A DNA stretch of 27,761 bases from a virus, in IMG/VR virus record IMGVR_UViG_3300042294_000282, positions 1-27,761 of that record; one strand, given 5' to 3'. The notes beneath the pieces were generated by a model. That model did not search any database and was not told the origin of the DNA. It worked only from the letters and a program-made list of their open reading frames with translations. Below, in pieces: positions 225 to 26,970 of the stretch. The translations under genes were made by a program, and so were the position numbers. Within the stretch, counting starts at the first letter, position 1, and each line of letters opens with the position of its first letter.

Positions 225-564
225 CACTCAACTTTTGAACGACATAAGCATCACCAATACCCTTGTTGGCAGCCTTAATTATTACCAATGGGGTTGGTGC
301 TAATGCTTGTTTCTTGGCTATCCGATAGTTCTCGGCTTCTATGTAGGCTTCCCTTAGCCACCCACTCAGGTCAATGCGACCATCCCTTCTAGGTGCTTTG
401 GCTTCTATTACATAGAAATCATTTGCCGTAGGTAAGAACACATCACCTATGTCGTTCCTTCCGGCGCGGGGTAAACGCTGTGCGTTTAAACCCTGAGTCA
501 TCAGCCAGTCAGCAAGTTCAATCTCAAAGGCTGCACCTCTACGCTTGTTCGCTTGGTTGTTCAT
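205..564 (-). CDS. PD-(D/E)XK nuclease, Holliday-junction-resolvase-like
   Basis: This 119-residue protein looks like a small PD-(D/E)XK endonuclease of the archaeal-Hjc/phage resolvase type. It has an N-terminal RRGAAFEIELADWL helix with the usual early Glu, then DIGDVF giving the metal-binding Asp, then VIEAK giving the E-x-K catalytic pair. The likely role is resolving branched DNA during phage replication or recombination. A longer frame opens at 630, but I chose the ATG at 564 because a GAAAGG ribosome site sits about 9 bases upstream and the extra residues look unrelated. It overlaps the glycosyltransferase gene upstream by 26 bases and the primase gene downstream by 20. The nuclease fold is well supported; the exact substrate is inferred. 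Confidence 0.75.
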   Translation of the reverse strand: MNNQANKRRGAAFEIELADWLMTQGLNAQRLPRAGRNDIGDVFLPTANDFYVIEAKAPRRDGRIDLSGWLREAYIEAENYRIAKKQALAPTPLVIIKAANKGIGDAYVVQKLSDALAKL

Positions 565-1285
565 TGGCTTTTGCCTTTCTCGCTTCGGCTTCGTAAACAG
601 AACCCCAATACAATTTGTAATAATTCTCATCCAAAGAAAAACGCTTCATGTGTTTAACGCGAGCGCCAGTATGGGTATGAACAGGAACCCCTGCCTTCTT
701 TAAGTATCTAAAGAAAACAATGTCCTCACTTACAAACTGATTGTTTAAACCTTCCTTTTCTGCAAACAAAGAATAATCAGGGCAGACTTCTCTTAACCTT
801 GGAACCACGCTCTTATGCATAAGGGTAAGTCCTAAGCCAGCGCAATCCACCTTAATCACTTCGTTCTCAGGTAGTGGATGTATGTATTGAATTGTAAATT
901 CTTGTCCACTTTCATTAAAGATACATGGCATAGGTTGCATCAATGCTTGTTCGTTTTCTTTAGAAATAAAATAAACACCAGTAACTACTGGGCGCACTAA
1001 CTTATCTGCTGTGTCCCATAGTTTCTTTAATACTTCTTGATTAAGAACAATGTCTGAGTCAACCCATAGCAACCAATCAGTCTTTACTTGGTCAGCCCAT
1101 AGGTCAAATAAGTTTTGTCTTTGCCTGCCAATCTGATTACCTTGCACACGGATAGCATTATGTACTTGTATGTGCTTAGGGTCTTGACCCATGATAGTTG
1201 TATAGACAAGTCCTTCGGTAAACTTACCGTCAGTCATACCATTGTCGCACCAACCGAGAGATAAAGTTTCATTTTTACTGTGCAT
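539..1285 (-). CDS. GT-A-type glycosyltransferase (family 2-like)
   Basis: This is a predicted soluble sugar transferase of 248 residues. The core has the nucleotide-sugar and metal-binding DxD motif as VDSDIV (D76, D78), followed by an acceptor-side region with DCAGLGLTLMHKS and a C-terminal His-containing segment HTGARVKH near residues 205-212. The N-terminal SLGWCDNGMTDG stretch resembles phage-encoded members I have seen. An AAAGGAAAAAG ribosome site fits the ATG at 1285. It overlaps the preceding gene by 11 bases. Its place between replication genes is odd for a sugar enzyme. It may modify phage DNA bases, virion proteins or host surface glycans. No base-hydroxylating partner enzyme is visible in this window. 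Confidence 0.8.
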   Translation of the reverse strand: MHSKNETLSLGWCDNGMTDGKFTEGLVYTTIMGQDPKHIQVHNAIRVQGNQIGRQRQNLFDLWADQVKTDWLLWVDSDIVLNQEVLKKLWDTADKLVRPVVTGVYFISKENEQALMQPMPCIFNESGQEFTIQYIHPLPENEVIKVDCAGLGLTLMHKSVVPRLREVCPDYSLFAEKEGLNNQFVSEDIVFFRYLKKAGVPVHTHTGARVKHMKRFSLDENYYKLYWGSVYEAEARKAKANEQPSEQA

Positions 1286-5694: not shown

Positions 5695-7671
5695 TTATAC
5701 GACAGTTCTCGCAACGACTTGGACAATACCGCCAAAGCCTGAGAAGTTACGGTTGGGTGGAGTTGAGCGAATAAAAGTTATCTGCTCTATCACCGCTTCA
5801 ATAGGCTCTCCGCCTGCGGTGAAATCTTGAATAACAACGGTTTCGCCTACGCCTTCAACCGCTTCTAACGCACTTAATCTTTGTCTTGCATAACCTTCGT
5901 AACCCAATAGGTTACCAAGTTTATCGGTTTCTCTATCAAAACAGAATAAAGGAATTTGAATAACGCGAGCGCGGGTAGGAGTAGGAAGCGCTTTAGCAGA
6001 ATAACCATAAATAACAGCGCCAGTAGTGGCATCAGAAGTGTTGCGGTAAAGGGTGAAACGGAAGGAAGCATCTGTTGAAACTTCCGGAAATACAACCGCA
6101 AGGTCATAGTCGTATTGTTCGGTTGCACCTTCTGCAACAGTAGTAAGCGTATCAAAAGAAGTTTCTTTAACTCTTGCAATTTCAATGTTTCCTTTTAATT
6201 CATCAGGTGTACGCAAACGAAGTCGCTTCCACGCTTTATTTTCTAAAGTATCAAAACGGATTAGTCCAGTAGTAAATGAACCTGACTCAACAAGGTCGGT
6301 AGCATGTTCAACCCAAAGACCTGAGCCTTCAACGGTAAATGCTTTGCGACCATTATCAAAAGTTGCAACAGAGTGTATGTCCCCAGTAACGCTAGTTGCA
6401 ACTAAGTCTGTTGCATAGGCATAGCCATTATTAGCCAATGGCGCACCAAGATTGATGCGGATTAAACCTGATTGACCACCAATGCCTGCGTTTACGCCAC
6501 ACCAAATAAATGAATTGCGAGCAGTAAATCCATAAATACCACCGCTTGCTTCAAATACAAGTGGACCATAAGTAACATTGCCATCACTATCAACAACAGC
6601 AACACGCACACCACGGCTAGTTCCAAGCATTAAATAAGAACCAAGGTAGCCATACATCTGTTCTAACTGTTCACTCTTTGGCAAAAGAATTACACGAACC
6701 ATTGTGGATAAAGCACCTGTATTATCTACGGTAATCTTAAATGCAGAACCTTCATCACCTGAGTATCCGCCAACATAAATAGCGTTAGACGACTCAGTTA
6801 CAGCAGTAAAAGTAAAACCGGAAGGTAGTGTTGTTGAACCATTGATAGCGGTTAAAGTGCTAAAGTTAATTGATGAGCCAGTATTTTTAGCAATAGAGTA
6901 AGCCTGAGTTCCGCCGTTAACATCAGAATAGGCAATAATAAAACGACTCTTAACATAGTTAATTGCAACCTTGCCAGTAGCAGCGTTAGTTGAATTGATA
7001 GCATAATCTTGATGTAGCGCTGGGCTAGTATCATCAAATGAATAACGGAAAACTTTAGTTGGTGTAACAACCATAAGGTCATTACCACCCATACATGCAG
7101 CCAAAATGATTTCAGTAATTGCAGTATTGTTTGCAATAGTAGTTTCACTACCAGTTGTAGAAATCCTTAGAATACGAACAGTATCTGATGCTGACTGGTT
7201 AACTTGGATAAGAAAGTCTGCACCGTTAATAGTTGTAGAAAAAACAAATGACTTAGCAGTTGTTGCTTCTTGAAGTGTAGTTTTCTTTAGAAGTTTAATT
7301 TCTCCAGTATTCCAAGGGTCAATACCCTCACCAGTCTTGTAACGAAACTTAGTTTGGTCAGGGTCGCCTTCAAGTGGTTCCTGATAGTTAATTCCTTGAC
7401 CTAGATGCAAGGATGACTGTGACCTAATCCAGTAACCTGAACCAGCAAGTGACTGCTCACCGGGGTCACGCTCTTGGTCAACGCGTTGAGTACGAAACTC
7501 TGCGGTCTGTCGGCGGTAAGGTGTAGCATCCGTTACGCCAAGGATAAAAGGCAAGCCTGCAATAGCCACATCAAAAGCATTACCAGTAATCTCATAGTAT
7601 TGAGATACGGAACCCGATAAGTCAATCTGCGGGCGTTCGGTAATGTGGGGCGCACGGCTAGTTATTGCCAT
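5695..7671 (-). CDS. Large beta-rich tail protein, nozzle or minor tail candidate
   Basis: This 658-residue protein consists mostly of short beta strands and turns, with repeated Gly- and Ser/Thr-rich blades through residues 130-480 that look like a beta-propeller. It lies between the fibre/adhesin genes and the lysis block. In short-tailed phages that position often holds the tail nozzle (tail tubular protein B-like) or a minor tail protein, and the size fits. No enzymatic motif is visible. The N-terminus (SRAPHITERPQID) has no signal. An AAGGAAG ribosome site lies seven bases before the ATG at 7671. The upstream gene ends with its own terminator, so this gene may have a separate promoter in the 69-base gap. 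Structural class is likely; the exact role is inferred. Confidence 0.65.
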   Translation of the reverse strand: MAITSRAPHITERPQIDLSGSVSQYYEITGNAFDVAIAGLPFILGVTDATPYRRQTAEFRTQRVDQERDPGEQSLAGSGYWIRSQSSLHLGQGINYQEPLEGDPDQTKFRYKTGEGIDPWNTGEIKLLKKTTLQEATTAKSFVFSTTINGADFLIQVNQSASDTVRILRISTTGSETTIANNTAITEIILAACMGGNDLMVVTPTKVFRYSFDDTSPALHQDYAINSTNAATGKVAINYVKSRFIIAYSDVNGGTQAYSIAKNTGSSINFSTLTAINGSTTLPSGFTFTAVTESSNAIYVGGYSGDEGSAFKITVDNTGALSTMVRVILLPKSEQLEQMYGYLGSYLMLGTSRGVRVAVVDSDGNVTYGPLVFEASGGIYGFTARNSFIWCGVNAGIGGQSGLIRINLGAPLANNGYAYATDLVATSVTGDIHSVATFDNGRKAFTVEGSGLWVEHATDLVESGSFTTGLIRFDTLENKAWKRLRLRTPDELKGNIEIARVKETSFDTLTTVAEGATEQYDYDLAVVFPEVSTDASFRFTLYRNTSDATTGAVIYGYSAKALPTPTRARVIQIPLFCFDRETDKLGNLLGYEGYARQRLSALEAVEGVGETVVIQDFTAGGEPIEAVIEQITFIRSTPPNRNFSGFGGIVQVVARTVV

Positions 7672-7698
7672 TTAAACACTTCCTTTACTGGGTTCGCC

Positions 7699-7731
7699 AA
7701 AAAATAAATGAGCAGTTTAAACACATGCTCA
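7699..7731 (-). terminator. Intrinsic terminator with GTTTAAAC in the loop
   Basis: Read on the minus strand, TGAGCA and TGCTCA form a six-base stem (7709-7714 with 7726-7731) followed by a T-rich tail (7699-7708). The 11-base loop contains the octamer GTTTAAAC at 7715-7722. It lies just after the stop of the 124-residue gene and before the 658-residue gene. Confidence 0.65.
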
Positions 7732-7740
7732 GGTGTTTTG

Positions 7741-8115
7741 TTAAACAGAAGGTAGTTCTATTTTAATCCACTCTTTGTTTATTTCAGACCATTGCCATAC
7801 ATAACCTTCACCATTATTGGGTTTAACAACTGGCGCTTCCCATTTGTAAGTTGTGTAATTTAATTTCCAAGATGGGTATGGTTGTGGTGCAATAAATACA
7901 TCAAAGTCTTGGTCGTATTTGTATCCAATTCCTGCGTAATTTGCACGGATGTTTCCATTGTATGAAGTTTGTTTCCAAATTCCACCAAGTAGTGATTGGC
8001 AAAAAGCAATGCCTTTAGCCTCTGACTCAACTCCATTTTCTAATAACTCGCTATTGTTTACAACAATAACTTGTGTAACTATGTTATTTTCATCTAGTTG
8101 TGCAAAATGTGCCAT
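7741..8115 (-). CDS. Conserved fibre-associated protein
   Basis: This 124-residue protein begins MAHFAQLDENNIVTQVIVV, a start I recall from many small proteins encoded beside tail fibres in aquatic phages. The middle is rich in Tyr, Trp and Asn (SYNGNIRANYAGIGY), and the end has a tryptophan-rich YVWQWSEINKEW. Possible roles are fibre assembly helper or fibre tip subunit; the sequence alone does not decide. A strong AAGGAGAT ribosome site lies upstream of the ATG at 8115. It directly follows the glycine-rich adhesin and is followed by a terminator, so it closes this transcription unit. Confidence 0.75.
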   Translation of the reverse strand: MAHFAQLDENNIVTQVIVVNNSELLENGVESEAKGIAFCQSLLGGIWKQTSYNGNIRANYAGIGYKYDQDFDVFIAPQPYPSWKLNYTTYKWEAPVVKPNNGEGYVWQWSEINKEWIKIELPSV

Positions 8116-11953: not shown

Positions 11954-12859
11954 CTACCTCTGATAGTGACTGCGGACTGGGAATTGTCTGCGTTGATTTT
12001 CTGCACACTCGTTTAAACGCTGTTGGTAGATACCAAACAAGAAGCGTGATGCAGTTTCGCCTGAACGAGCAGTTTGTTGTGAGTCAAGCAAGTCTGCTGC
12101 TGCGTGTTGCGGACCAAGGCGAGAAGGGTCTAAGAACGAAATCATCCTAAAGGCTGCGCCATAAATGATTACATCCTCAGCGTATGACGGCAAACCAGTA
12201 ACTGTAACAAAGTCATCTGCTGCTGCCGACAATAGTGTTGGGCGCTTTGAATAAACAACATTGACTTTGCGCCCCGGAACAATAGGAGAGTAAACGCTAA
12301 TACTCTTTCCTAGGTTACCGCCTGTGCCAAATGTTGTTGGGTTAGCCAATCGGTCTAGTTGCCATGCACGAACTGGAAGCCACTCGTTGCTTGGACCTAT
12401 GACTGAGTGAGTAAGGTTTAAAATGTTTTCTGCTTCATCAGGTAAATCATAAGTTGTCTTAGCAGCAACAAAACTAAACTCTGTTTGACCTACGCCAAAG
12501 ATGGCTGGGTAAACAGCATTGATAGTATCGTTGATGGCACGCTTAATTTCATTGCGTGGGAACAATGGTGAAACAGTTACTCTATCGTTAGCAGCATGAG
12601 TAGCAGCGGTAGTACCGCGTTGTCCACGACCCCAAGGGGCTAGTGTTAATGTGCTTGATGCTGGGTTAACGGTGTTTACATACATCATTTCGTCACCTAC
12701 TTGTATGTAACCACGACCAATTACTGATGTATCAAACACAGTAATAGAAGTTGTAGATGTGGTTGCGCTGGTTGTTAGCCATGTGCTGGCTTCGGAGTTA
12801 ACCGTGTAGCCATGCAGTAGCGTATCAACACGCTCAGTTAATTGGTCAAATGTACTCAT
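11954..12859 (-). CDS. Tail adaptor/tubular-A-like protein candidate
   Basis: This 301-residue protein has an N-terminal helix, then a small beta module (about 25-105) with GYIQVGDEMMYV and WGRGQRGTTAATHAANDRV, then a mixed body with a helical C-terminus. In short-tailed phages a protein of this size between capsid and fibre genes is often the adaptor that joins portal and tail. The module resembles the one in the fibre (residues 30-95), so it may be a docking unit. It overlaps the upstream 88-residue gene by four bases. No enzyme motif is visible. One GTTTAAAC octamer encodes Arg-Leu-Asn near the C-terminus. Confidence 0.6.
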   Translation of the reverse strand: MSTFDQLTERVDTLLHGYTVNSEASTWLTTSATTSTTSITVFDTSVIGRGYIQVGDEMMYVNTVNPASSTLTLAPWGRGQRGTTAATHAANDRVTVSPLFPRNEIKRAINDTINAVYPAIFGVGQTEFSFVAAKTTYDLPDEAENILNLTHSVIGPSNEWLPVRAWQLDRLANPTTFGTGGNLGKSISVYSPIVPGRKVNVVYSKRPTLLSAAADDFVTVTGLPSYAEDVIIYGAAFRMISFLDPSRLGPQHAAADLLDSQQTARSGETASRFLFGIYQQRLNECAENQRRQFPVRSHYQR

Positions 12860-13122: not shown

Positions 13123-13280
13123 TACTTAGCCTTTCTTTTTGCTGCTGCGTTATCTACTAAGTTTGGATAAGGGCGACCAGCCTTCTTAGCCATAGCCTTA
13201 GCCTTGGCTTTTTGTGCTGGTGTTAAAGGTGTAGATTTTTTATTAGGGTTCTTTGTATCCCAAAATGCTTTCTTTTTCAC
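13122..13280 (-). CDS. Small Lys/Ala-rich basic protein
   Basis: This gene encodes 52 residues, of which 14 are Lys and 2 are Arg. It reads VKKKAFWDTKNPNKKSTPL and then an Ala/Lys helix with KAKAKAMAKKAGRPYPN. Two GTG codons (13283 and 13280) could start it; I prefer 13280 because AAGGTG lies five bases upstream. It overlaps the previous stop and couples through TAATG to the next gene. The composition fits a nucleic-acid-binding or packaged protein. No family is recognised. Confidence 0.7.
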   Translation of the reverse strand: MKKKAFWDTKNPNKKSTPLTPAQKAKAKAMAKKAGRPYPNLVDNAAAKRKAK

Positions 13281-13558
13281 CACTTCACCTTGTCTGCCCA
13301 GTATGCTGCGGACATTTTGCCTTTGGCAATGTTCTTAGCATGACGAGCCTTGAAGGATGCTTGGCGTGCAGTTGGTTGTCTATCACCAGTCACGCCTTGC
13401 TGTCCGAAACGAATTGTCTTTACTTGTGAGCCATCTTTAGCCACAACAACATGCGACTTAGTAGGATGACTTGGAGTGCGCTTGGGTTTGTTAAAGCCTG
13501 ATACGCCTGCTCTTGCTAATCTAGGGTCGCGTTTGCTTTTGTTTTCCATACTCTCCAT
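13277..13558 (-). CDS. Conserved basic phage protein of unknown function
   Basis: This protein has 93 residues from the ATG at 13558; an in-frame ATG at 13549 gives 90 and is equally possible. The order RDPRLARAGVSGFNKPKRTP, KSHVVVAKDG, IRFGQQG and a C-terminal FKARHAKNIAKGKMSAAYWA resembles a small protein I recall as widely conserved in aquatic phages, always with this closing segment. The function is not known to me. The charge is strongly positive. It shares 38 bases with the end of the 49-residue gene upstream, and a GTG-started gene begins at its stop. Confidence 0.78.
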   Translation of the reverse strand: MESMENKSKRDPRLARAGVSGFNKPKRTPSHPTKSHVVVAKDGSQVKTIRFGQQGVTGDRQPTARQASFKARHAKNIAKGKMSAAYWADKVKW

Positions 13559-13906: not shown

Positions 13907-14074
13907 TTATTTCCCCTTTTTTTTAGATTTACCCGCTACCGATAAAGCAATAGCAACGGCTTGTTTACGATTTTTTACAACTGCTGCTTTCTTAGGACCT
14001 TTTGGGTCTTTTCCACTATGTAGGGTTCCGCGTTTAAACTCACCCATTACCTTTTGAACTTTGTTCTTAGGCAT
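13907..14074 (-). CDS. DUF6496-like small basic protein
   Basis: This 55-residue protein reads KVMGEFKRGTLHSGK, then VKNRKQAVAIALSVAGKSKKK. This order (EFK-GTL-HSGK and K-RKQA-AIALS-AGK) matches the small DUF6496-type proteins as I remember them, common in phages and bacteria and of unknown function. The ATG at 14074 overlaps the preceding TAA. The gene contains one GTTTAAAC octamer encoding Phe-Lys, and an A-rich run near its 3' end. Confidence 0.8.
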   Translation of the reverse strand: MPKNKVQKVMGEFKRGTLHSGKDPKGPKKAAVVKNRKQAVAIALSVAGKSKKKGK

Positions 14075-14226
14075 TAGTCATCCTCAATTTCGGTATCGTT
14101 CTTGTGATACATACCGGGTTGAACTGTGACTTTCTTTAAACTTGCCTCTGTTGGCTTGCTGCTTACTTCCCTACCGCCTACGCCGTAAGGGTTAACAGAG
14201 CCGTAGCATCCGCACTCAGCACACAT
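14074..14226 (-). CDS. Small cysteine-containing hypothetical protein
   Basis: This 50-residue protein opens with MCAECGCYG, a C-x2-C-x-C cluster that could bind a metal, followed by NPYGVGGREV and a polar acidic end. It is the only non-basic member of the row of small genes. Its stop overlaps the next ATG by one base, and its start lies immediately after the HslV-like gene. No known family is recognised. Confidence 0.65.
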   Translation of the reverse strand: MCAECGCYGSVNPYGVGGREVSSKPTEASLKKVTVQPGMYHKNDTEIEDD

Positions 14227-14790
14227 TTACTTACTCCTTTGGGTAATTACTTTTACATCTCCGCCAACACTTATGTTGTAATCAGCGGAAATCTTGATTG
14301 CTCTACGAGCCACAGCCTCAACGCTCTTAATAGAGTTCTTGCTCATGCCTGCTGCTGCGAGCGCACCAAGGGCTAAATCGCCACCGCTGCCTACCGCATA
14401 CAAACCACGGTCATCTCTTGACCATAAGTAATCTTGGTCAACTTCATAGATAACACCGTTTAAACAGATAAGTGCATCAAATCCGGCATCTTTATCTTTG
14501 GCTGTATCAGGGTTATACCCATGCTCAACCATTACTTCCCGTAGGGAAGGCAGAACTTTTGTCTGCATAAATACATCTGTTGCTATTGTCTTAATAACTT
14601 TAGGTGGGTTCCAAAGGTATGTTGCTATGTTGCCAGCAATGGCATCACCTGAAAAACCAAATACATAGTCACCTTTTTTAGTAACTTTATCCACACCTTT
14701 TGCATAGTATGGTTTGTCGTCATAGGTAGTCATGGAGTCTGCTGCGACTAACGCCCAGCCTTTTCCCTGAATACCTACAATGGCAGTCAT
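14227..14790 (-). CDS. HslV/proteasome-beta-like Ntn hydrolase
   Basis: This 187-residue protease resembles HslV and 20S beta subunits along its whole length. After Met removal, Thr2 becomes the N-terminal nucleophile (TAIVGI). Asp18 fits the conserved D17, and Lys35 in DKV aligns with K33 after a one-residue insertion. YVFGFSGD matches the GFAGG strand, and LYAVGSGGDLALGAL matches the GSGG oxyanion/Ser129 region. No HslU-like ATPase is seen. AAGGGG lies five bases before the ATG at 14790. It sits two small genes after the major capsid protein, so a role in procapsid maturation or scaffold removal is attractive but inferred. Host-protein degradation is the main alternative. Confidence 0.87.
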   Translation of the reverse strand: MTAIVGIQGKGWALVAADSMTTYDDKPYYAKGVDKVTKKGDYVFGFSGDAIAGNIATYLWNPPKVIKTIATDVFMQTKVLPSLREVMVEHGYNPDTAKDKDAGFDALICLNGVIYEVDQDYLWSRDDRGLYAVGSGGDLALGALAAAGMSKNSIKSVEAVARRAIKISADYNISVGGDVKVITQRSK

Positions 14791-14792
14791 TG

Positions 14793-15065
14793 TTACCCCT
14801 TAAAAGTTCCCGTATTTGCATCAAAGGCTTTACCAGCCTTGTCTGATTTTTCAACAGCATCTTTAATCTTTGCCATTGAAGTTCCAGCAGGTTGAATACC
14901 TTGCGCTCTTGCAGCAGCATAGGCATTAAGTTCAGCGTTCCATTTCTTTTCGGTCATACCCTTAGCACTATTAGCATCACCTGTGCTGAACTCTAAGTTA
15001 GATGCTTTTAGACACTCGCCCCAGTTTTCGTGGTCCTGTGTTGGGCAACCAGTTCTACATGCCAT
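14793..15065 (-). CDS. Conserved small protein downstream of capsid gene
   Basis: This 90-residue protein opens with MACRTGCPTQDHENWGECLK, whose three cysteines may bind metal or form a cluster. A helical middle with KKWNAELNAYAAARAQGI follows. I recall similar proteins beside capsid genes in other phages, but no function. It begins two bases after the stop of the 85-residue gene. The octamer GTTTAAAC lies immediately before its ATG and also supplies that previous stop. Confidence 0.72.
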   Translation of the reverse strand: MACRTGCPTQDHENWGECLKASNLEFSTGDANSAKGMTEKKWNAELNAYAAARAQGIQPAGTSMAKIKDAVEKSDKAGKAFDANTGTFKG

Positions 15066-15067
15066 GT

Positions 15068-15325
15068 TTAAACCGTTGTTATGTAATCTCCATAGCCTGC
15101 TGCTATGAGTAGTGTTCTTGTTTGGTCATCAATGTCGTACACATGTCCACCTAAATAAACTTCGTCTGCTTCTAGGGTTTGAGTTTGGCTTGGATAACGG
15201 TATGATGAATACACCCCGTTTACCCGTAGAACACTAATACCACGGTGGATACCCATACGCTCAAATAGCGTGTGACCGCCAGCAGGGGTTTCCTTGACGG
15301 TGGGTGGTGTGAATTGGTATGCCAT
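15068..15325 (-). CDS. Small structural protein, head completion candidate
   Basis: This 85-residue protein is mostly beta, with SVLRVNGVYSSYRYPS and EVYLGGHVYDIDDQTRTLLIAAGYGDYI. It follows the major capsid gene after a hairpin, with a strong AAGGAG ribosome site before its ATG at 15325. Such placement suits a head-completion or head-tail joining protein, but no family match is claimed. Its stop codon TAA is formed by GTTTAAAC at 15066-15073. Confidence 0.68.
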   Translation of the reverse strand: MAYQFTPPTVKETPAGGHTLFERMGIHRGISVLRVNGVYSSYRYPSQTQTLEADEVYLGGHVYDIDDQTRTLLIAAGYGDYITTV

Positions 15326-15392: not shown

Positions 15393-16538
15393 TTAGTCAG
15401 AGATGCTAGATGAAGTTTCAATGCGGAACAACGCATCCTCACGGTAGCGGGCGAAACCAAGTACGCCGTACCAACCGATTGGGCGGAAACGCATCAACTT
15501 ATCAGTAACAGGTCCGATAACTACGCCCGGTTCCTGTGCAACTGCTTCTGCCAAAGCCTGCTTTCCAGCAAGGATTGTGCGGAATACATTTGTCTTAGGT
15601 GTGATGGTTACAGTTGCACCTGATGTAACAGCAGCAGTAGTTGCTACTGAAAGGGTGATAACTGCGCCATTGATTGCTGAAACAAGTGTGCTTGCGCCAG
15701 TTGTTGCAGAAATTGCAAGACCATCACCGACATCAATACCTGATGTTGATGCAACAGTAATTGTTGTTGCACCTGATGCAGATGTTGCTGTGGTTGTAGT
15801 TGTGAAGGTTGACTGATTAGCACCTTCTGCCTTTTCGTACATGCGTGGTGTTTCTACAAAGAAAGCACCTTCGTATGTTCCGATTGTTCCAGCCCATAGG
15901 TTACCCTGTGCAGAGTCTGTCTGAGCGTGGATGTCGCGCCATCCGACTGAGCCTGTTTCAGCACGAAGGTCGTGTGAAACCTCAGGGTGAATACCGCACC
16001 AGTACAAAGAACCTTGGCGTGGAACAGCCTTGTTGGCACGCAACTTGGCTACTGCACGGCGGATTTTTGCTGATGTTAGTACATCTGCGGATGAAACGGT
16101 TGCTGTTGAAGTTACAGAGCCACCGTAAAGAACATTTGTTCCTTGGCGTAGGCTTTCCATTGCAATCTTATCAAGTGAGTCAGCCATGTTGTAGGCAATA
16201 ATGTCTGCAACTGCTGGGTCCACATCTGATAGAGAGAATAGTTGTAACTTACGAGTTACAAGTGATGCATTACCGTATTCTGCAAGTGTTACAGAAGTGG
16301 TAGATACATCAGATAGTGCTACTGCATCAGGGTCTGTTGCCTCTGAAAGTGCAGAAGTTGCGGCAGCCAAATCGTTGTAAAGTGAGAATACAACGCTTGA
16401 CCCCGGCATTGCTTGCTGTGCTGGGCGCTTGTCTGCAACGCTACGAACTAGCGGTTGCGAACGGAGAGCGAACTCAACATAGCGGTCATACGCAGTTTTC
16501 ACCAAACCCGCAAGGGCTGATGTATTTGTGTCTGCCAT
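15393..16538 (-). CDS. Major capsid protein, N4-gp56 family
   Basis: This 381-residue capsid protein is of the N4-gp56 family (HK97 fold). Visible signs are the N-terminal helix with TAYDRYVEFALRSQPLVRSVADKRPA, the AEYGNASLVTRKLQL strand, the long helix with DIIAYNMADSLDKIAMESLRQG, and IHPEVSHDLRAE, with GWYGVLGFARYREDALFRIET at the end. A Thr/Ser/Ala-rich beta module is inserted at about 245-315, absent from the minimal family and likely exposed on the capsid surface. AAGGAGT precedes the ATG at 16538. It follows the candidate scaffold gene and is followed by hairpins, as expected for a highly expressed gene. Confidence 0.88.
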   Translation of the reverse strand: MADTNTSALAGLVKTAYDRYVEFALRSQPLVRSVADKRPAQQAMPGSSVVFSLYNDLAAATSALSEATDPDAVALSDVSTTSVTLAEYGNASLVTRKLQLFSLSDVDPAVADIIAYNMADSLDKIAMESLRQGTNVLYGGSVTSTATVSSADVLTSAKIRRAVAKLRANKAVPRQGSLYWCGIHPEVSHDLRAETGSVGWRDIHAQTDSAQGNLWAGTIGTYEGAFFVETPRMYEKAEGANQSTFTTTTTATSASGATTITVASTSGIDVGDGLAISATTGASTLVSAINGAVITLSVATTAAVTSGATVTITPKTNVFRTILAGKQALAEAVAQEPGVVIGPVTDKLMRFRPIGWYGVLGFARYREDALFRIETSSSISD

Positions 16539-16566: not shown

Positions 16567-17031
16567 TTAATTTAATCCAAGGATGCGGTTTAATTCATCT
16601 GCGTTACCTGCTGCAAGGATTTTAGCCATAGCATCTGAGTCAACTTCGGGAACTTGCCCTGTTGAAACCACTTGGTTAATTCTTGCATTTGCGGAAACAT
16701 CAACTGAATTATTTGAAGCCTGCTCTGAATTAGCATTTGAGTTAACACCAAAGACATCACCGTATTCACTAAGCCAGCCATTGATTGCATCCTCAGATGT
16801 ATCAATGTCTTGCGGTATGAAAGCAGCAATCTTTGGGTTAATACCCTTGGCTTGCAACACATCCTTTACAGTACGCTGGCGGGTCTGCGATTGCAGTCCT
16901 TTCAACTCCTGTTCCAGTTCTTTAGCACGCTTTTCTAGTGTGCGGTTTACTTTACGGAGTTGCTTAACTACATCTGTGCCTTCGTCACCGAAGTCATCAA
17001 ACTCGTCATCATACTCGTTATTTTGGCTCAT
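16567..17031 (-). CDS. Capsid scaffold protein candidate
   Basis: This protein has 154 residues from the ATG at 17031. A longer frame to 17091 exists, but AAGGGAG lies seven bases before 17031 and fits it better. It has an acidic N-terminus (EYDDEFDDFGDEG), a coiled coil at about 20-50 (VNRTLEKRAKELEQELKGL), then a helical domain and an acidic, Asn/Ser-rich tail. Directly upstream of the capsid gene, this shape and charge match phage scaffolding proteins. The capsid gene follows after 28 bases. Confidence 0.75.
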   Translation of the reverse strand: MSQNNEYDDEFDDFGDEGTDVVKQLRKVNRTLEKRAKELEQELKGLQSQTRQRTVKDVLQAKGINPKIAAFIPQDIDTSEDAINGWLSEYGDVFGVNSNANSEQASNNSVDVSANARINQVVSTGQVPEVDSDAMAKILAAGNADELNRILGLN

Positions 17032-17156
17032 TAGCCATCTCCCTTTTCTCGTTGTTGTATTCGCAATCCACAACTTTATGTAGGGGAACATAAGTTGGCT
17101 ATTGCTACCAGACTTCTTACACTTATCCGGGCTGGTCGGTCAGATAAGGAACCTAA
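17032..17156 (-). promoter_or_regulatory. Gap before scaffold gene with two inverted repeats
   Basis: AACTTTATGT/ACATAAGTT at 17072-17096 form a stem with one bulge. CTTATC/GATAAG at 17122-17148 form a second stem with a 15-base loop. The gap separates the ejection-protein genes from the scaffold/capsid genes and probably holds a promoter for the latter. I could not pick a clear -35/-10 pair. Confidence 0.45.
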
Positions 17157-20793: not shown

Positions 20794-23700
20794 TTAAATC
20801 ACCACCGGGTCGTTTGGAAAGTATCGGTTATAGAAATCACTAAACTCAGGTGACTCAGCACCAAGTTGGGTAACAAACTTATCCCAAAGTTCTGCTAAAT
20901 CATCATTAGTATTTGCATCTAATGAGCGTGAACCGCCCATTTGGTCGCGCTGTAACAATGCTTGACCAATCTTTTTACGAGCATCTAAATACAAAGCAAC
21001 AGCCTTTACAACTGGTCGGTCACCATTTTGGGTCATCCATGCTTTGTTTTGAAGCGCTTGTTCAAGAACATCAGCACGCTTCATGTACTTGCCACGGTCA
21101 GGCGACATGTACGCTGCATACCAGTCAGGGTTGTTTTGCCCCATGTAATCAAGCCATTGGCGCTTAGCATTATTGTACTGCTCTAGCAATGGGTCACGAT
21201 TACTACCGATACCGTTCTGAATTTTGAAGGCATCAATAACATCTTGTATTTTGCGATACTCAGTCCAGCCACGCTTTAGGTTAGCATCTCTAATAAGTTC
21301 TGCTGGGTTACGGTTCTGACGGTAGGTGTTAGCCGAACCGGGGTATGAACCTGTGCGGTATTGCCATTGGTAAGCAGCCTGTGAGAAGTCATACTGACCA
21401 TCAAAGTCATTAGCAAGCCATCCCATAAGTTCAGGCTCACCCTTTGCTTCTGCTGTTGCCATTAGACCGCTGAATTTACGAAGGTTACGAACGGTATCTA
21501 GGTTGGCTTCAAGTCCACCGGGGTTCTTAGAAAGAGATACTGTGGCTTCAAAGAAGTCAGGATACATCTCAAAGAACTTAGCCTCTGCTTCGCCGGGTTC
21601 TGTGTATTGATTTTGGAACTGGCGGAAAGTCTGTTGGTAGAAATCTACATCAGGTGAAATAGCAAATGGTGCAGAGATGGCAGACAAAGAACGAAGCATG
21701 TAGAACTTGTTTACCTTGCTGGTAACTTCCTCTACTGTTGGTGGTTCTTGTCGCTTACCTGTGTTGTAGTTGTATGTTTCATAACGCAACATTTGATTAA
21801 AGGTACGAACATACATCTCATCTTTAGACCATAAGGTTTTAAGACGGCGTACTGTGCTAGGTAAGAAAATGTCGCTTGCGTTAGTAGGCATACCTGCTGG
21901 GAATAGCGGTTTAAACGCTTCCTCAAATTCAGGGCGTTGGCGCAAGATTAAATAAGTTGGGAATACTGCGTAAGGACCAAAGCCCGGATTTCCTGCTTGA
22001 CCTTGTGTAATAACATCAAGGCTTGATAGAGGAATACGAACTTGTTTAAACGCGTTCTCAGCAACTTCTTGCCACTCACCCGGCAATGCTTTGATAAAAG
22101 CATCAGGAACTTGAACTACAAGATTAGCCATGCCATCTCCGCTAAGTTGTTTAGCATCAGTAACACGGTTACCTTCTTGGTCAACCACTAATTGTCCATT
22201 AACAATTTGGGCAATAGTTCTAGCAGCGGTAGTTACAACTTGTGGGTTTTCGGCAACAATGCCACCCCAACGCATAAGAGTATTCTCATAGGCTGCATAG
22301 AACGGGAATAACAAGCGCATTACTTGGCTTGATGATGCACCAGTTCTACGAACGATTGTAAACAAAGTGCGCTCTACTTCACGGCGGGCTTCCTCACGGG
22401 CAGCACGCTCAGCACGGCGAATTTCATCACCTGTAAGTTTGTCTGTTCCTCTAGCCTGTGCAATCCCATCAATGTTCTTTTTAACATTTTCTTGATAAAC
22501 AACATTTACCAATGGGTGACGAGCAAAAGTATCCTCAGGAAGTGAACCCAAGAAACGCATTACACGGCGGTTAATCAAGTCAACCACACGCTCTTGGTCA
22601 CGGTATTCCTTACTTGTAGTTACAAGCAAACCGTTAATCTCAGGTAAGTTCTCAGGTTGTGCGCCAAAACGGTTAAGTAAAAAGACTTCTACATCTCCAC
22701 CAGTTAATGGCTTGCCATCCTCTTTAGCAGCACTAAGCATAAGCGCTGTATCCTCATCAGGGATGTAAGTCTTAACTGCATTACGAGTATCACTAATTCT
22801 TGTTAGTAGATAGTCGTTTAGTTCACCACGCTTTAGTTCGCCAAATCCAAGACCTTTGCCCGGAACTGTGTAAGTGTTATTTGCCCACTTACGACCTTCA
22901 AGGCTTCTAGTCATCCAACCTAAAATTTCATCATTGCTGTCGCCATCAAGAACACGGCGCACTACTGGGTCCATAGCACCCGTTTCAGGGTCGCGGAAGT
23001 GTAGGTTTAATACACCAGCCCATGCTTCAAAGTATCGTGGGTCGCCCGGTTTAACTGGTCGCATTGACCTAGAACCCGGACCTGCAAGGAACGCCATTTG
23101 CTGGCTTCCAATGATGCTACCCCAAGTTTGTTCAGATGATGTACGAGCAAGCATCCATGATGCGTTCTCAAATACTTCATCAACTTCGTAAGAGTGTCCA
23201 CCTGCTTCGTGAGTAAATGTTCCATAGCCAACTTTTGATTTAACAGACATTTGTTCTGCTTGACCAATACGAGCGTTTAAACGACCCATAAGGTCATCAA
23301 GTTGAGCATTTACTTCTGCGTATGAACGACCAATGTTTGCAGCAGCATCCTCTACGCCATTGTTAATCATGGCAAGCAGGCTCTCATCATCATAGTAAGG
23401 AGAAACTGCTGGGCGAGTACGGCGTGACTTTTCTTTACGGCGTAACATTGTGCGAGCAAGACGGCGTTCTTTAGTATCTTGTAATGGTTGGGCAATGTCT
23501 AATGCAGCATCTGCTTCTGCTTGTGCTGCTTCAATTTGAGCGCGAGTTAACTTAGTAACTTCACGACCACGACCTGCTTCACCAACTGCCTCAGGTAGAA
23601 TAATGTGTGAAACTCCACCTGCACGGCGGTCATCTCCTACAACTGCACGACCAAAATTGTTTTCACGAAGGTATTTGTATAAAGGTGAGTTTTGGTCTTG

Positions 23701-26700
23701 CCAACCCTTACTCTTTACCCAAGCACGCCAAACCTTTACATCTCCACCAAATACTTCTTTACGAACATCCAATGGGATGTCTGACCATTTAGTGAGATAA
23801 AGTGCTTCGCCATAAGCACGAACAGGAACTACGCTTCCACCATCACGGCGAACACGGAATACTGCACGCTCTAATTCTTTAGGATTAAGGTTGCGTATTC
23901 TATCCTCATCAACCTTAACAAAACCTTTACTTGTGCCTTTACGAAGTTCAACAATGTTTCCAGCACGGGATGCGCCAATCATGTCTGACTTCATACGCGC
24001 TGCTGCTGTAATTAACTTTTCAGGGTATGGCTTACGAACAGGGCGTGGGTCATAACCCCACTCAAACCAAGAGTTACCATCAGTAAAAATGTCGCCTGCA
24101 CGGACTTTCATTTCGTCAATGCGAAAAGCCTCATCACCAAAACGACCCTTACCATGAAGGTCAGCGTATTCACGAAGTGGTGTTACCCAGTCACCAACAT
24201 TGATGCCAGCGGGTGCATCCTTTGGTACTGCACGATAAATCGTAATTGTACGATTTGGATTACCCTTAAAATCTTGAATAAGTGCTGCAACCTTTTTATC
24301 AAGGTTACGCCAATCAGGACCACCAACACCGTAAATACGAACAGCATCAGGAGAATAAACATCCTCAGGGTAAATCCGAGCCATGTTATCTAGTGATGCA
24401 CCAAATTCGCGGTCAGGTGCTGTGTGTGCGCCACGGTATCCAGCGGTAAATGTTGACTGCGGATGGCGCTGTGGACCTTTACGAGTTACAACTCTTAGTG
24501 GAACTGGGCGACCAGTTTCTGAGATGTAGCGTTCTAGCCCAAAAGTAAATTCTTGTGATGCATAACGGTCAGCAATTCCTGCTGATGGTGTAGCAGATAA
24601 CGGTCTTGTTGGGTCAAAAGCAAACTCATCTGCTGCTGAACCATGATACAAAGTAACTGCTTCTGCTTCTGCCAAGGCTGAACGAAGTCTTGTAAGTTCT
24701 TTAGGTAGCACAATCGCTGCTGCTTCCTCAACACCAACTAGATTGCCTTTAGCCTTTTCAGCAGCAATGTAATTAGCAATTAGGCGCTCGCCACCACGCT
24801 CAATGTCTGCCATGCGTGTACGGATTTCTCCTGCAAGACCCTTACGAGAAAGGTCAAGACCACGAAGCATGTCTTGAAGTTTTGCAACTTCATTACGCAA
24901 AACATTGATGTCGTCTTTACGACCTGCTAAAACTTCAACATTATCAATAAGGCGAGTAAATCCTGCCTTACGATTGTTTAAAAATCTCTTTACAGCCTCA
25001 GGTCCACCAACCGCAGCAGCGGATGGTAGAGCAAAAGCCTTAGCCATCATAGATAGTTGTGCTTCTGTAAGGTTACGAACTGTATAACCTAAGCGCATAA
25101 GAACAGATGTCTTGAAAATGTCGTTAACATTATCAAGGGTGTTCATAAACTTTTGTCCACGAACGGCAATTTCCGTTGGGTCAATACCTGAAAGGATGCT
25201 TGGTAGCACTCTTTCGTATGAGTCAATACCGTTCTTTAGTCGGCGTAAGTCCATTGCAATAACAATGTTTGCAGACTCACGCTCTAACTGTGGAAACTTA
25301 GCAATTACTGGACCGTTCTCTGTAAAGATAGACAAGAAGCCACGGTCTTTGTGTTCTTTTAATGTCTTAGCACGGCGGTAATCAAAAATTGCATAAAGTT
25401 TTTCAATCTGCTGTTGGCTCATGTTTGGGGCAATAATTCCCAAAGCATCTTTTTCTGCCAACTTAATAATGTTTAAACGCTCACCTTCGGTGGCTGCTGC
25501 AAGATACTGGTCAGCATAAACGCCAGCCTTAGTTGCAAATGTTCCACCTGATAGTTCAACGGCTTCACGCAAAAATGCGTTCATCTCCACATAGGAGTCA
25601 GCATCATTGACTTGGAATACACCGCTTGGGCGAAACTTAGTAAAAAATTCTGATTTGCCCTTCATGTAATTAACAACCATAACGGCTGGATGAAGGCTTG
25701 TCTTTTGTATCATTGTAATTTCAGGGTCAGCAAAAGTCTTTGCTAACTTCTCTGCTTGCTTTCTTGCATAACCTGAAAGTGGTCCACGGGCAAAAGTTCC
25801 ACCACGGAACTCATTACCACCAGTAGAAACTTTTTCTAGTGCAATACGGAAACGGTCATCCTCTTTAACAAGAGTATCTAAATAAGTTCCAACTGCACGG
25901 TTGTATTCAGGGTTAACAATTAAATCACCATCAAGTTGTCCGTTTAGTGCTTCACGATAAGGCTTTGGGACATCTGTTAGATTATCAAGAACAAGTGCTG
26001 CTTCATCATCAACCTTTGCGATTGATGCCATTGCTTGCTTGTCTAATCCCATTACTGCACGGAAGGTATCAACAACTTCTTGGTCAGTAGTTGCACGACC
26101 AAATAAATAAGCCATAGCGTCAGGATGTGTAACACGCTTTTTAGACCAGTATCCATACTGACCTTTAGCATCAGTTTGTGCAAGGAACTTAATGTCCTCA
26201 ACTGCACGACCTTCGCCTTGAAGCGCACGACCTAATAGGTCATCCATGCCTTCTTTAGTCATTGCAAAATTACCAAAAACTTTACGAGTTAAAGAACCCG
26301 GAAGTGCTGCAACACCTGTTCTGCCTGCACCTTCTAGTGCGGTTACCATTGGCGCACGGGCTGCAATAGTTAAACCTTTACCTGCAAACCCAGCAAAGAA
26401 CAATGGGTCAATAGTCATAGATGAAGTAAAGTCAACAGAACCGCTAGCAAACTTACCAATGAACTGGTCGTTAAATGCTGCTTCTCTGTCCTCAGGATTA
26501 AATAAATCAAATCCTGCTGCTAAAAATTTTAAATTACGGTCAGTAAAATCATGGAACCAACCTGAGTTTTCTGCTGCGTTCTTGCCCTGACCAAACAAAG
26601 ATAGGGCAACTTGACCCATAGAAATTTCATCTTTGTTTTCGGCTACGCGCTGTTGGTATTGTTCGTATGTTTCACCGGGATTTTTGTATCGGTTATACAT

Positions 26701-26970
26701 AAAAGGAAGTTCAAGTCCTTTTTGTACAACTGCTTCACGGGCTTGACCACCTAATTCATAAGATGCTTCGCCAAGCGCAAAGAGTCCCTTAACTGCACCA
26801 CGAACTGGCGTAGTTCCGACTTTAACAACACCTTTGGCAACATTAACGGCATCTACATACCATGGGTCATCATTTGACCCTGATGTAGCAATGTCGTGAA
26901 CTAAGCCCGGTATGCCTGTAAAATTAACAACGCCTTTGGCAATGTCGCCAATACGGTTATACCAAGCCAT
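20794..26970 (-). CDS. Giant polyvalent internal protein with ADP-ribosyltransferase-like segments
   Basis: This 2058-residue protein fills a fifth of the window. Two stretches look like ADP-ribosyltransferase folds. One is at about 773-880 (YHGSA, then ATPSAGIADRYAS). The other is at about 905-975 (TIYRAVP, GDWVTPLREYADLHG, KVRAGDIFTDGNSWFEWGYD), with R913 and E970 as likely NAD-site residues; it matches the ART domain of phage polyvalent proteins. A later part (FTIVRRTGASSSQVMRLLFP) and the helical C-terminus resemble large polyvalent protein-associated regions. Residues 1-200 include hydrophobic segments. Such proteins are packed in the capsid, enter the cell with DNA and modify host targets. 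It starts as TAATG with the upstream gene. Confidence 0.8.
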   Translation of the reverse strand: MAWYNRIGDIAKGVVNFTGIPGLVHDIATSGSNDDPWYVDAVNVAKGVVKVGTTPVRGAVKGLFALGEASYELGGQAREAVVQKGLELPFMYNRYKNPGETYEQYQQRVAENKDEISMGQVALSLFGQGKNAAENSGWFHDFTDRNLKFLAAGFDLFNPEDREAAFNDQFIGKFASGSVDFTSSMTIDPLFFAGFAGKGLTIAARAPMVTALEGAGRTGVAALPGSLTRKVFGNFAMTKEGMDDLLGRALQGEGRAVEDIKFLAQTDAKGQYGYWSKKRVTHPDAMAYLFGRATTDQEVVDTFRAVMGLDKQAMASIAKVDDEAALVLDNLTDVPKPYREALNGQLDGDLIVNPEYNRAVGTYLDTLVKEDDRFRIALEKVSTGGNEFRGGTFARGPLSGYARKQAEKLAKTFADPEITMIQKTSLHPAVMVVNYMKGKSEFFTKFRPSGVFQVNDADSYVEMNAFLREAVELSGGTFATKAGVYADQYLAAATEGERLNIIKLAEKDALGIIAPNMSQQQIEKLYAIFDYRRAKTLKEHKDRGFLSIFTENGPVIAKFPQLERESANIVIAMDLRRLKNGIDSYERVLPSILSGIDPTEIAVRGQKFMNTLDNVNDIFKTSVLMRLGYTVRNLTEAQLSMMAKAFALPSAAAVGGPEAVKRFLNNRKAGFTRLIDNVEVLAGRKDDINVLRNEVAKLQDMLRGLDLSRKGLAGEIRTRMADIERGGERLIANYIAAEKAKGNLVGVEEAAAIVLPKELTRLRSALAEAEAVTLYHGSAADEFAFDPTRPLSATPSAGIADRYASQEFTFGLERYISETGRPVPLRVVTRKGPQRHPQSTFTAGYRGAHTAPDREFGASLDNMARIYPEDVYSPDAVRIYGVGGPDWRNLDKKVAALIQDFKGNPNRTITIYRAVPKDAPAGINVGDWVTPLREYADLHGKGRFGDEAFRIDEMKVRAGDIFTDGNSWFEWGYDPRPVRKPYPEKLITAAARMKSDMIGASRAGNIVELRKGTSKGFVKVDEDRIRNLNPKELERAVFRVRRDGGSVVPVRAYGEALYLTKWSDIPLDVRKEVFGGDVKVWRAWVKSKGWQDQNSPLYKYLRENNFGRAVVGDDRRAGGVSHIILPEAVGEAGRGREVTKLTRAQIEAAQAEADAALDIAQPLQDTKERRLARTMLRRKEKSRRTRPAVSPYYDDESLLAMINNGVEDAAANIGRSYAEVNAQLDDLMGRLNARIGQAEQMSVKSKVGYGTFTHEAGGHSYEVDEVFENASWMLARTSSEQTWGSIIGSQQMAFLAGPGSRSMRPVKPGDPRYFEAWAGVLNLHFRDPETGAMDPVVRRVLDGDSNDEILGWMTRSLEGRKWANNTYTVPGKGLGFGELKRGELNDYLLTRISDTRNAVKTYIPDEDTALMLSAAKEDGKPLTGGDVEVFLLNRFGAQPENLPEINGLLVTTSKEYRDQERVVDLINRRVMRFLGSLPEDTFARHPLVNVVYQENVKKNIDGIAQARGTDKLTGDEIRRAERAAREEARREVERTLFTIVRRTGASSSQVMRLLFPFYAAYENTLMRWGGIVAENPQVVTTAARTIAQIVNGQLVVDQEGNRVTDAKQLSGDGMANLVVQVPDAFIKALPGEWQEVAENAFKQVRIPLSSLDVITQGQAGNPGFGPYAVFPTYLILRQRPEFEEAFKPLFPAGMPTNASDIFLPSTVRRLKTLWSKDEMYVRTFNQMLRYETYNYNTGKRQEPPTVEEVTSKVNKFYMLRSLSAISAPFAISPDVDFYQQTFRQFQNQYTEPGEAEAKFFEMYPDFFEATVSLSKNPGGLEANLDTVRNLRKFSGLMATAEAKGEPELMGWLANDFDGQYDFSQAAYQWQYRTGSYPGSANTYRQNRNPAELIRDANLKRGWTEYRKIQDVIDAFKIQNGIGSNRDPLLEQYNNAKRQWLDYMGQNNPDWYAAYMSPDRGKYMKRADVLEQALQNKAWMTQNGDRPVVKAVALYLDARKKIGQALLQRDQMGGSRSLDANTNDDLAELWDKFVTQLGAESPEFSDFYNRYFPNDPVVI

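Follow-up and report, generated by a model that had tools for sequence, protein, structure and literature searches.

A proteasome-like threonine hydrolase gene in an exchangeable slot of the capsid operon in a group of probably actinobacterial phages

The viral DNA analysed here (the window; 27,761 nucleotides, IMG/VR virus record IMGVR_UViG_3300042294_000282) carries, behind its major capsid gene, a gene for a predicted N-terminal threonine hydrolase of the proteasome-like superfamily. We consider it rather probable that the protein is a threonine peptidase resembling HslV and the Betaproteobacteria proteasome homologue (BPH), which would be produced late in infection as an exchangeable accessory and act inside the cell without an unfoldase, and which does not mature the capsid. 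Proteasome homologues of phages are already known (PMC8665760). What is new is the recurrent location in the capsid operon of a large, probably actinobacterial phage group (561 related environmental stretches among the matches listed), the exchange of this one gene and the existence of natural knockouts. Since the location recurs and the one-gene knockouts occur on near-identical backgrounds, the function of the protease is directly testable. The case also cautions against assuming that a protease encoded beside a capsid gene must be a prohead enzyme.

The open reading frame reported by a previous sequence-only reading of the window is intact and lies on the minus strand (Table 1); the plus strand across the same interval contains many stops and is non-coding. 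The protein matches the Pfam family Proteasome (PF00227; E 1.2e-5, 25.4 bits against a cut-off of 22.4) and, among the PHROGs profiles, PHROG_1040, annotated as 'peptidase HslV family' (E 1.1e-24). A PDB search with a profile of the protease family retrieved BPH (7.4e-15) and HslV (from 8.5e-14). The structure prediction of the monomer, which the sequence-only reading had proposed as a check, reached a pLDDT of 89.4 and a pTM of 0.87, and the predicted fold is that of a proteasome beta-subunit: 1112 PDB structures match the model at E<=0.001, with BPH and HslV in the lead. The top match is BPH 5ovs (TM 0.76), followed by HslV and proteasome subunits. In nearly all relatives, the start codon is preceded by three or fewer in-frame codons, and the protease therefore lacks a propeptide. 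Judged by its nearest match in sequence and in predicted fold, and by the missing propeptide, the protein is a homologue of the BPH/group I type.

Table 1. Features of the window around the protease gene and codons of the putative catalytic residues (aa, amino acids)
Feature	Position	Strand	Evidence and remarks
SU10-type adaptor	11954..12859	-	PF24175 E 1.2e-9; synteny; downstream end of the conserved block
55-aa Lys-rich gene (KVQKVMGEFKRGTL)	13907..14074	-	Relatives kept in many genomes without protease
50-aa Cys-motif gene (MCAECGCYGSVNPYG)	14074..14226	-	Start abuts protease stop
Predicted proteasome-like (PHROG_1040 / group I, nearest BPH) N-terminal threonine hydrolase, 187 aa	14227..14790	-	ORF, Pfam, PHROGs, PDB profile, predicted fold
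GSGG motif, residues 134-137	14380..14391	-	No variation at G134 and G136; S135 and G137 almost invariant in A3
Lys35, corresponding to Lys33 (one residue inserted)	14686..14688	-	Invariant in alignments A1 and A3
Asp18, Asp17 equivalent	14737..14739	-	Invariant in alignments A1 and A3
Thr codon 2, putative catalytic Thr1, which removal of the initiator Met would expose	14785..14787	-	Thr in 155/155 relatives, directly after the start codon
90-aa gene (PHROG_10483)	14793..15065	-	Ends 2 nt before the protease gene; occurs with and without protease
85-aa gene (PHROG_8987)	15068..15325	-	Occurs with and without protease
Major capsid protein, N4-gp56 family	15393..16538	-	TIGR04387 106.9 bits (cut-off 60); phrog_1357 E 1.8e-80
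Scaffold-like protein (DUF4355 / Gp46-like)	16567..17091	-	PF14265 E 5e-5, just below cut-off; weak head-scaffold PHROG matches

In the numbering used here, the initiator Met is residue 1. The Thr1/Asp17/Lys33 set that characterizes the proteasome-like superfamily is present in alignments A1 and A3, and Gly48 is the equivalent of Gly47. Only M1, T2, I4, D18, K35, P63, G134 and G136 are invariant in an alignment of 23 protease sequences. When the 155 relatives are read at fixed positions, residue 18 is Asp in 150 and Glu in five, and Lys35 is found in 154, being invariant once the sequences are aligned. The processed-Thr start, the Asp17 and Lys33 equivalents and the GSGG motif, which had been recognized in the window protein, are thus all kept and near-invariant among its relatives. 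In the closest clade, dN/dS amounts to 0.098 for the protease and 0.134 for the capsid protein, and the mean identity over 30 diverged loci selected by the capsid is 75.6% and 70.2%, respectively; at the codon level, the gene is under purifying selection. The pattern of catalytic residues combined with a dN/dS of 0.098 cannot plausibly be due to chance and implies that the protein is an active N-terminal threonine hydrolase; the earlier expectation that the protein should be active is supported as a prediction from conservation.

The best solved match by profile and by fold, BPH (5ovs, 5ovt, 5ovu), forms a propeptide-free double ring, for which an AAA+ partner is not known (PMC5777263). The phage protein shares the missing propeptide; it differs from BPH in being phage-borne and only about 22% identical, and its ring and activity are predictions. 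With HslV, it has the fold, the Thr1/Asp17/Lys33 residues and the GSG motif in common. The initial designation as HslV/proteasome-like therefore stands as far as a proteasome-fold threonine hydrolase is meant (PF00227, PHROG_1040, fold), but orthology to HslV was rejected, with scores of 23.8 bits for TIGR03692 (cut-off 157.75) and 24.4 bits for NF003964 (cut-off 137) and with HslU missing. Indeed, the lack of HslU noticed in the window extends to all 24 near-complete relatives searched with TIGR00390 (15 with and nine without the protease; controls 14/14), and an HslU of the host is possible. Proteasome homologues termed PPH, AAH and CPH have been described in tailed phages, likewise devoid of AAA+ partners, by Fuchs et al. 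2021, who reported no informative genomic context and found no actinobacteria-specific phage with AAH (PMC8665760). As a member of PHROG_1040, the protease falls into the neighbourhood of their group I and is placed at group level, above PPH, AAH and CPH; in contrast to these, it occupies a fixed slot near the capsid gene, from which it is cleanly exchanged.

All genes of the window with family matches lie on the minus strand. In the order of transcription, a giant 2058-aa protein is followed by proteins of 210, 498 and 501 aa, the scaffold, the N4-gp56 capsid protein, the 85-aa and 90-aa proteins and the protease, and then by the 50-aa Cys-motif gene, the 55-aa Lys-rich gene, genes of 77, 93 and 88 aa, the SU10-type adaptor, tail-fibre-like genes and, finally, exonuclease, DnaB-like, glycosyltransferase and resolvase-like genes. 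Both the N4-gp56 assignment of the capsid protein, whose score clearly exceeds the family cut-off, and the two small genes between capsid gene and protease agree with the sequence-only reading. In G029, a relative of 40.8 kb that encodes capsid and protease proteins identical to the window's, genes for a terminase, a portal protein, primase-like and sigma-70-like proteins and WhiB are present in addition; WhiB points to a probably actinobacterial host.

Several other genes of this neighbourhood deserve mention. The giant open reading frame (20794-26970, minus strand) belongs to PHROG_10618, and its residues 838-978 match a ParB C-terminal PHROG; its relatives form two identity classes (about 50-60% and 32-35%), each including genomes with and without the protease. 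The 93-aa protein (13277-13558, minus strand) is the most conserved of the block, with a mean identity of 89% where the capsid has 70%, and weakly resembles a PHROG of minor head / DNA pilot proteins. The family 2 glycosyltransferase (539-1285, minus strand; PHROG_34859) has homologues in 24/24 near-complete genomes compared.

In all 80 loci selected by the protease, the order capsid, 85-aa, 90-aa, protease, 93-aa, 88-aa and adaptor gene is found wherever these genes are covered and detected. As a sample drawn with the protease as query is biased, the capsid protein was taken as independent bait. The contigs that extend 1.5 kb or more beyond the capsid gene number 71; of these, 43 carry the protease, located 584-784 nt behind the capsid gene, and 28 have the slot without it. 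The synteny with N4-gp56 capsid genes, which had been suggested as worth checking, is thus genuine and conserved in the protease's own clade. In contigs without protease, the slot is occupied by an unrelated gene of about 83 aa, the product of which is basic at its N-terminus and acidic at its C-terminus; the Cys-motif and Lys-rich genes known from the protease loci usually come next, and relatives of the Cys-motif gene are kept in many genomes in which the protease is swapped out. The 82/83-aa gene is present in 0/102 loci with and in 28/31 loci without the protease, and the three loci with neither gene include a spurious capsid match (L011), which was removed from the capsid tree. Whole-record searches detected the protease nowhere in nine genomes of 36-40 kb and in three shorter ones of 32-35 kb, and the 83-aa gene in none of ten protease-carrying records. 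All nine of the 36-40 kb genomes lacking the protease contain the 83-aa gene, a count that is partly due to selection because seven of them were found by the 83-aa query; the two found by the capsid (G018 and G021) carry it as well. Since the records are metagenomic, linear and without a completeness estimate, the absence of the protease rests on several 36-40 kb records and not on closed genomes.

In a capsid tree of 84 sequences, the presence of the protease changes six times by parsimony, and at least four changes are forced by starred branches. The exchange is best seen in a pair of contigs with capsid proteins of 97.4% identity, of which L117 carries the protease and L124 the 83-aa gene: the DNA on either side, 2381 and 862 nt long, is 90% identical between them, and the difference is confined to positions 11724-12314 of L117 and 11758-12089 of L124, a clean one-gene swap. 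The same pattern is found for L107 and L126. Alleles of the protease are exchanged as well, as L118 and L107 have capsids of 93% but proteases of only 54% identity (best tblastn segments in these identity comparisons). When the gene content of 15 genomes with and nine without the protease was compared using automatic ORF sets, capsid, portal, terminase, adaptor and scaffold were common to both groups, the last-named genes each going undetected in one genome at most. No gene for a partner or substrate emerged, as only the protease and the 83-aa gene segregate fully; weaker associations with the protease occur, for instance in 9/15 versus 0/9 genomes. A PADLOC search gave no matches. By these genome comparisons, the gene is an accessory one, residing in the capsid operon at a site where one gene is replaced by another.

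Outside its own clade, the protease is found at various positions. In four contigs (L313, L319, L320 and L323), the portal gene is followed by the homologue at a distance of about 15 nt. In ct2KA10, the homologue precedes the giant protein near the start of the head module, some 9 kb upstream of the capsid gene, and in L316 it has exonuclease, WhiB-like and DnaB-like genes beside it. In large phages, the neighbours are WhiB (DSL-LC01), thymidylate synthase and ribonucleotide reductase (RNR; AAS21), ThyX and MazG (Pumpernickel) or endolysin and RNR (R16F). Positions of this kind are more readily reconciled with a role in the infected cell than with one in assembly. The relatives also differ in length, with 71 of the 155 having 229-259 aa and 27 having 203-213 aa. 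Lys-rich C-terminal extensions are present in those longer relatives that were read, and the window protein and other relatives of 186-192 aa have no such tail. In L094, which does not encode the protease, a nearly identical tail sequence of 51 aa stands as a separate open reading frame, and the long tail therefore looks like a fused neighbour gene.

The position of the gene had led to the suggestion of an unusual capsid-maturation or scaffold-clearing protease, which would act within the prohead by cleaving the capsid protein or degrading the scaffold. The constant place two genes after the capsid gene in the 80 protease-selected loci and, in other lineages, the location immediately following the portal gene speak for it, as does the absence of prohead proteases of the S78, ClpP and S49 types, which holds not only in the window, as noted before, but in all 24 near-complete relatives; in the search for S77 prohead proteases, the controls were silent. 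S78, ClpP-like and S49 prohead proteases are likewise encoded near the capsid gene, but their fold is unrelated and, unlike them, the gene described here is dispensable for the same capsid. Relatives with a 97%-identical capsid and 90%-identical flanking DNA carry the unrelated 83-aa gene instead, and the nine near-complete genomes without the protease are also free of S78, ClpP-type and S49 enzymes as substitutes. No difference in an N-terminal propeptide of the capsid protein was seen between phages with and without the protease, as the N-termini read alike, and for mature coliphage N4, the published description of this family's capsid protein begins at residue 1 and includes an N-terminal arm spanning residues 1-46 (PMC11768535). 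Furthermore, related capsids occur in 29 cultured Streptomyces phage records, and no protease homologue of these phages was found among the 22 records matched at E<=1 (tblastn). Among them, phages of the Beephvirinae (Manuel and others) encode a capsid of the same family, about 55% identical over 78% of the query, and resemble the window in the order of their head genes. Owing to the swap, the gene content, the capsid N-termini and the cultured relatives, a required capsid or scaffold protease is unlikely on this indirect, comparative evidence, and the enzyme appears to be an exchangeable extra. Maturation was thus rejected as the main reading, and we regard it as improbable; a head-related role of some kind is possible in view of the linkage to head genes and the portal-adjacent position.

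Other roles have been considered. The protease and the 83-aa protein could be alternative answers to one task, the phage bringing either its own protease or a small adaptor or inhibitor that acts either on a protease of the host or on the target shared with the phage protease. The strict one-for-one exchange, the exclusivity across the whole of the records searched and the clean gene boundary of the swap speak for such alternatives, but recombination at conserved flanks can lead to slot exchange without a shared function, and the 83-aa protein could not be assigned convincingly to any family and has a helical model of low confidence only (pLDDT 73, pTM 0.47). It is conceivable that the 83-aa gene replaces the protease functionally, yet we think the idea of alternatives unlikely. 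A more specific version, in which a single problem of late infection has two swappable solutions, a proteasome-like protease or a helical, acidic-ended protein of about 83 aa that redirects or blocks a host protease, is speculative and has a low probability. The late-gene position and the Lys-rich extensions of the longer relatives would fit a protease that is packaged with the DNA, perhaps via these tails, and ejected into the host; as the tail is missing in the window protein and in other relatives of its size, there is little to recommend a virion-borne enzyme here. Finally, connectase, a ligase among the proteasome-like proteins (PMC8665760), shows that a non-degradative N-terminal-nucleophile enzyme, either a ligase or a specific processing amidase, is conceivable for this fold. 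With BPH and HslV as nearest matches in sequence and fold, such an activity is doubtful.

Most likely, the BPH/HslV-like peptidase serves the turnover of a host protein or an unassembled phage protein in the infected cell rather than maturing the capsid. It would probably be made late, together with the late genes, because its gene follows at 2 nt the 85/90-aa pair that trails the capsid gene. A methionine aminopeptidase of the host may remove the initiator Met and thereby expose Thr1, which would be activated by Asp17 and Lys33. The subunits are expected to assemble into a self-compartmentalising ring, which small or unfolded proteins could enter with no need for a dedicated AAA+ unfoldase.

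Further observations concern the hosts and gene repertoire of these phages. WhiB or WhiB-like genes, which point to actinobacterial hosts, are found in genomes with and without the protease (L162:4225-4614, minus strand; L316:3430-3693; L082:12715-12954), and WhiB lies next to the protease homologue in DSL-LC01. A search of genome contigs with a smaller alignment yielded one phage-like contig (L238), which is filed under a gammaproteobacterial MAG and encodes a protease homologue of 32% identity (6380-7009); it also contains a WhiB-like open reading frame (7657-8085) and phage-type genes, which suggests an actinophage contig that was binned wrongly. In G029, a class II glutamine amidotransferase (PF13522; L162:6749-7549, minus strand) is encoded about 600 nt from an Amidoligase_2 protein (PF12224; L162:8164-8919, minus strand), and open reading frames similar to this pair are also present in G018, which is devoid of the protease. 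It is conceivable that the two enzymes form a peptide-tagging or cell-wall-modification pair.
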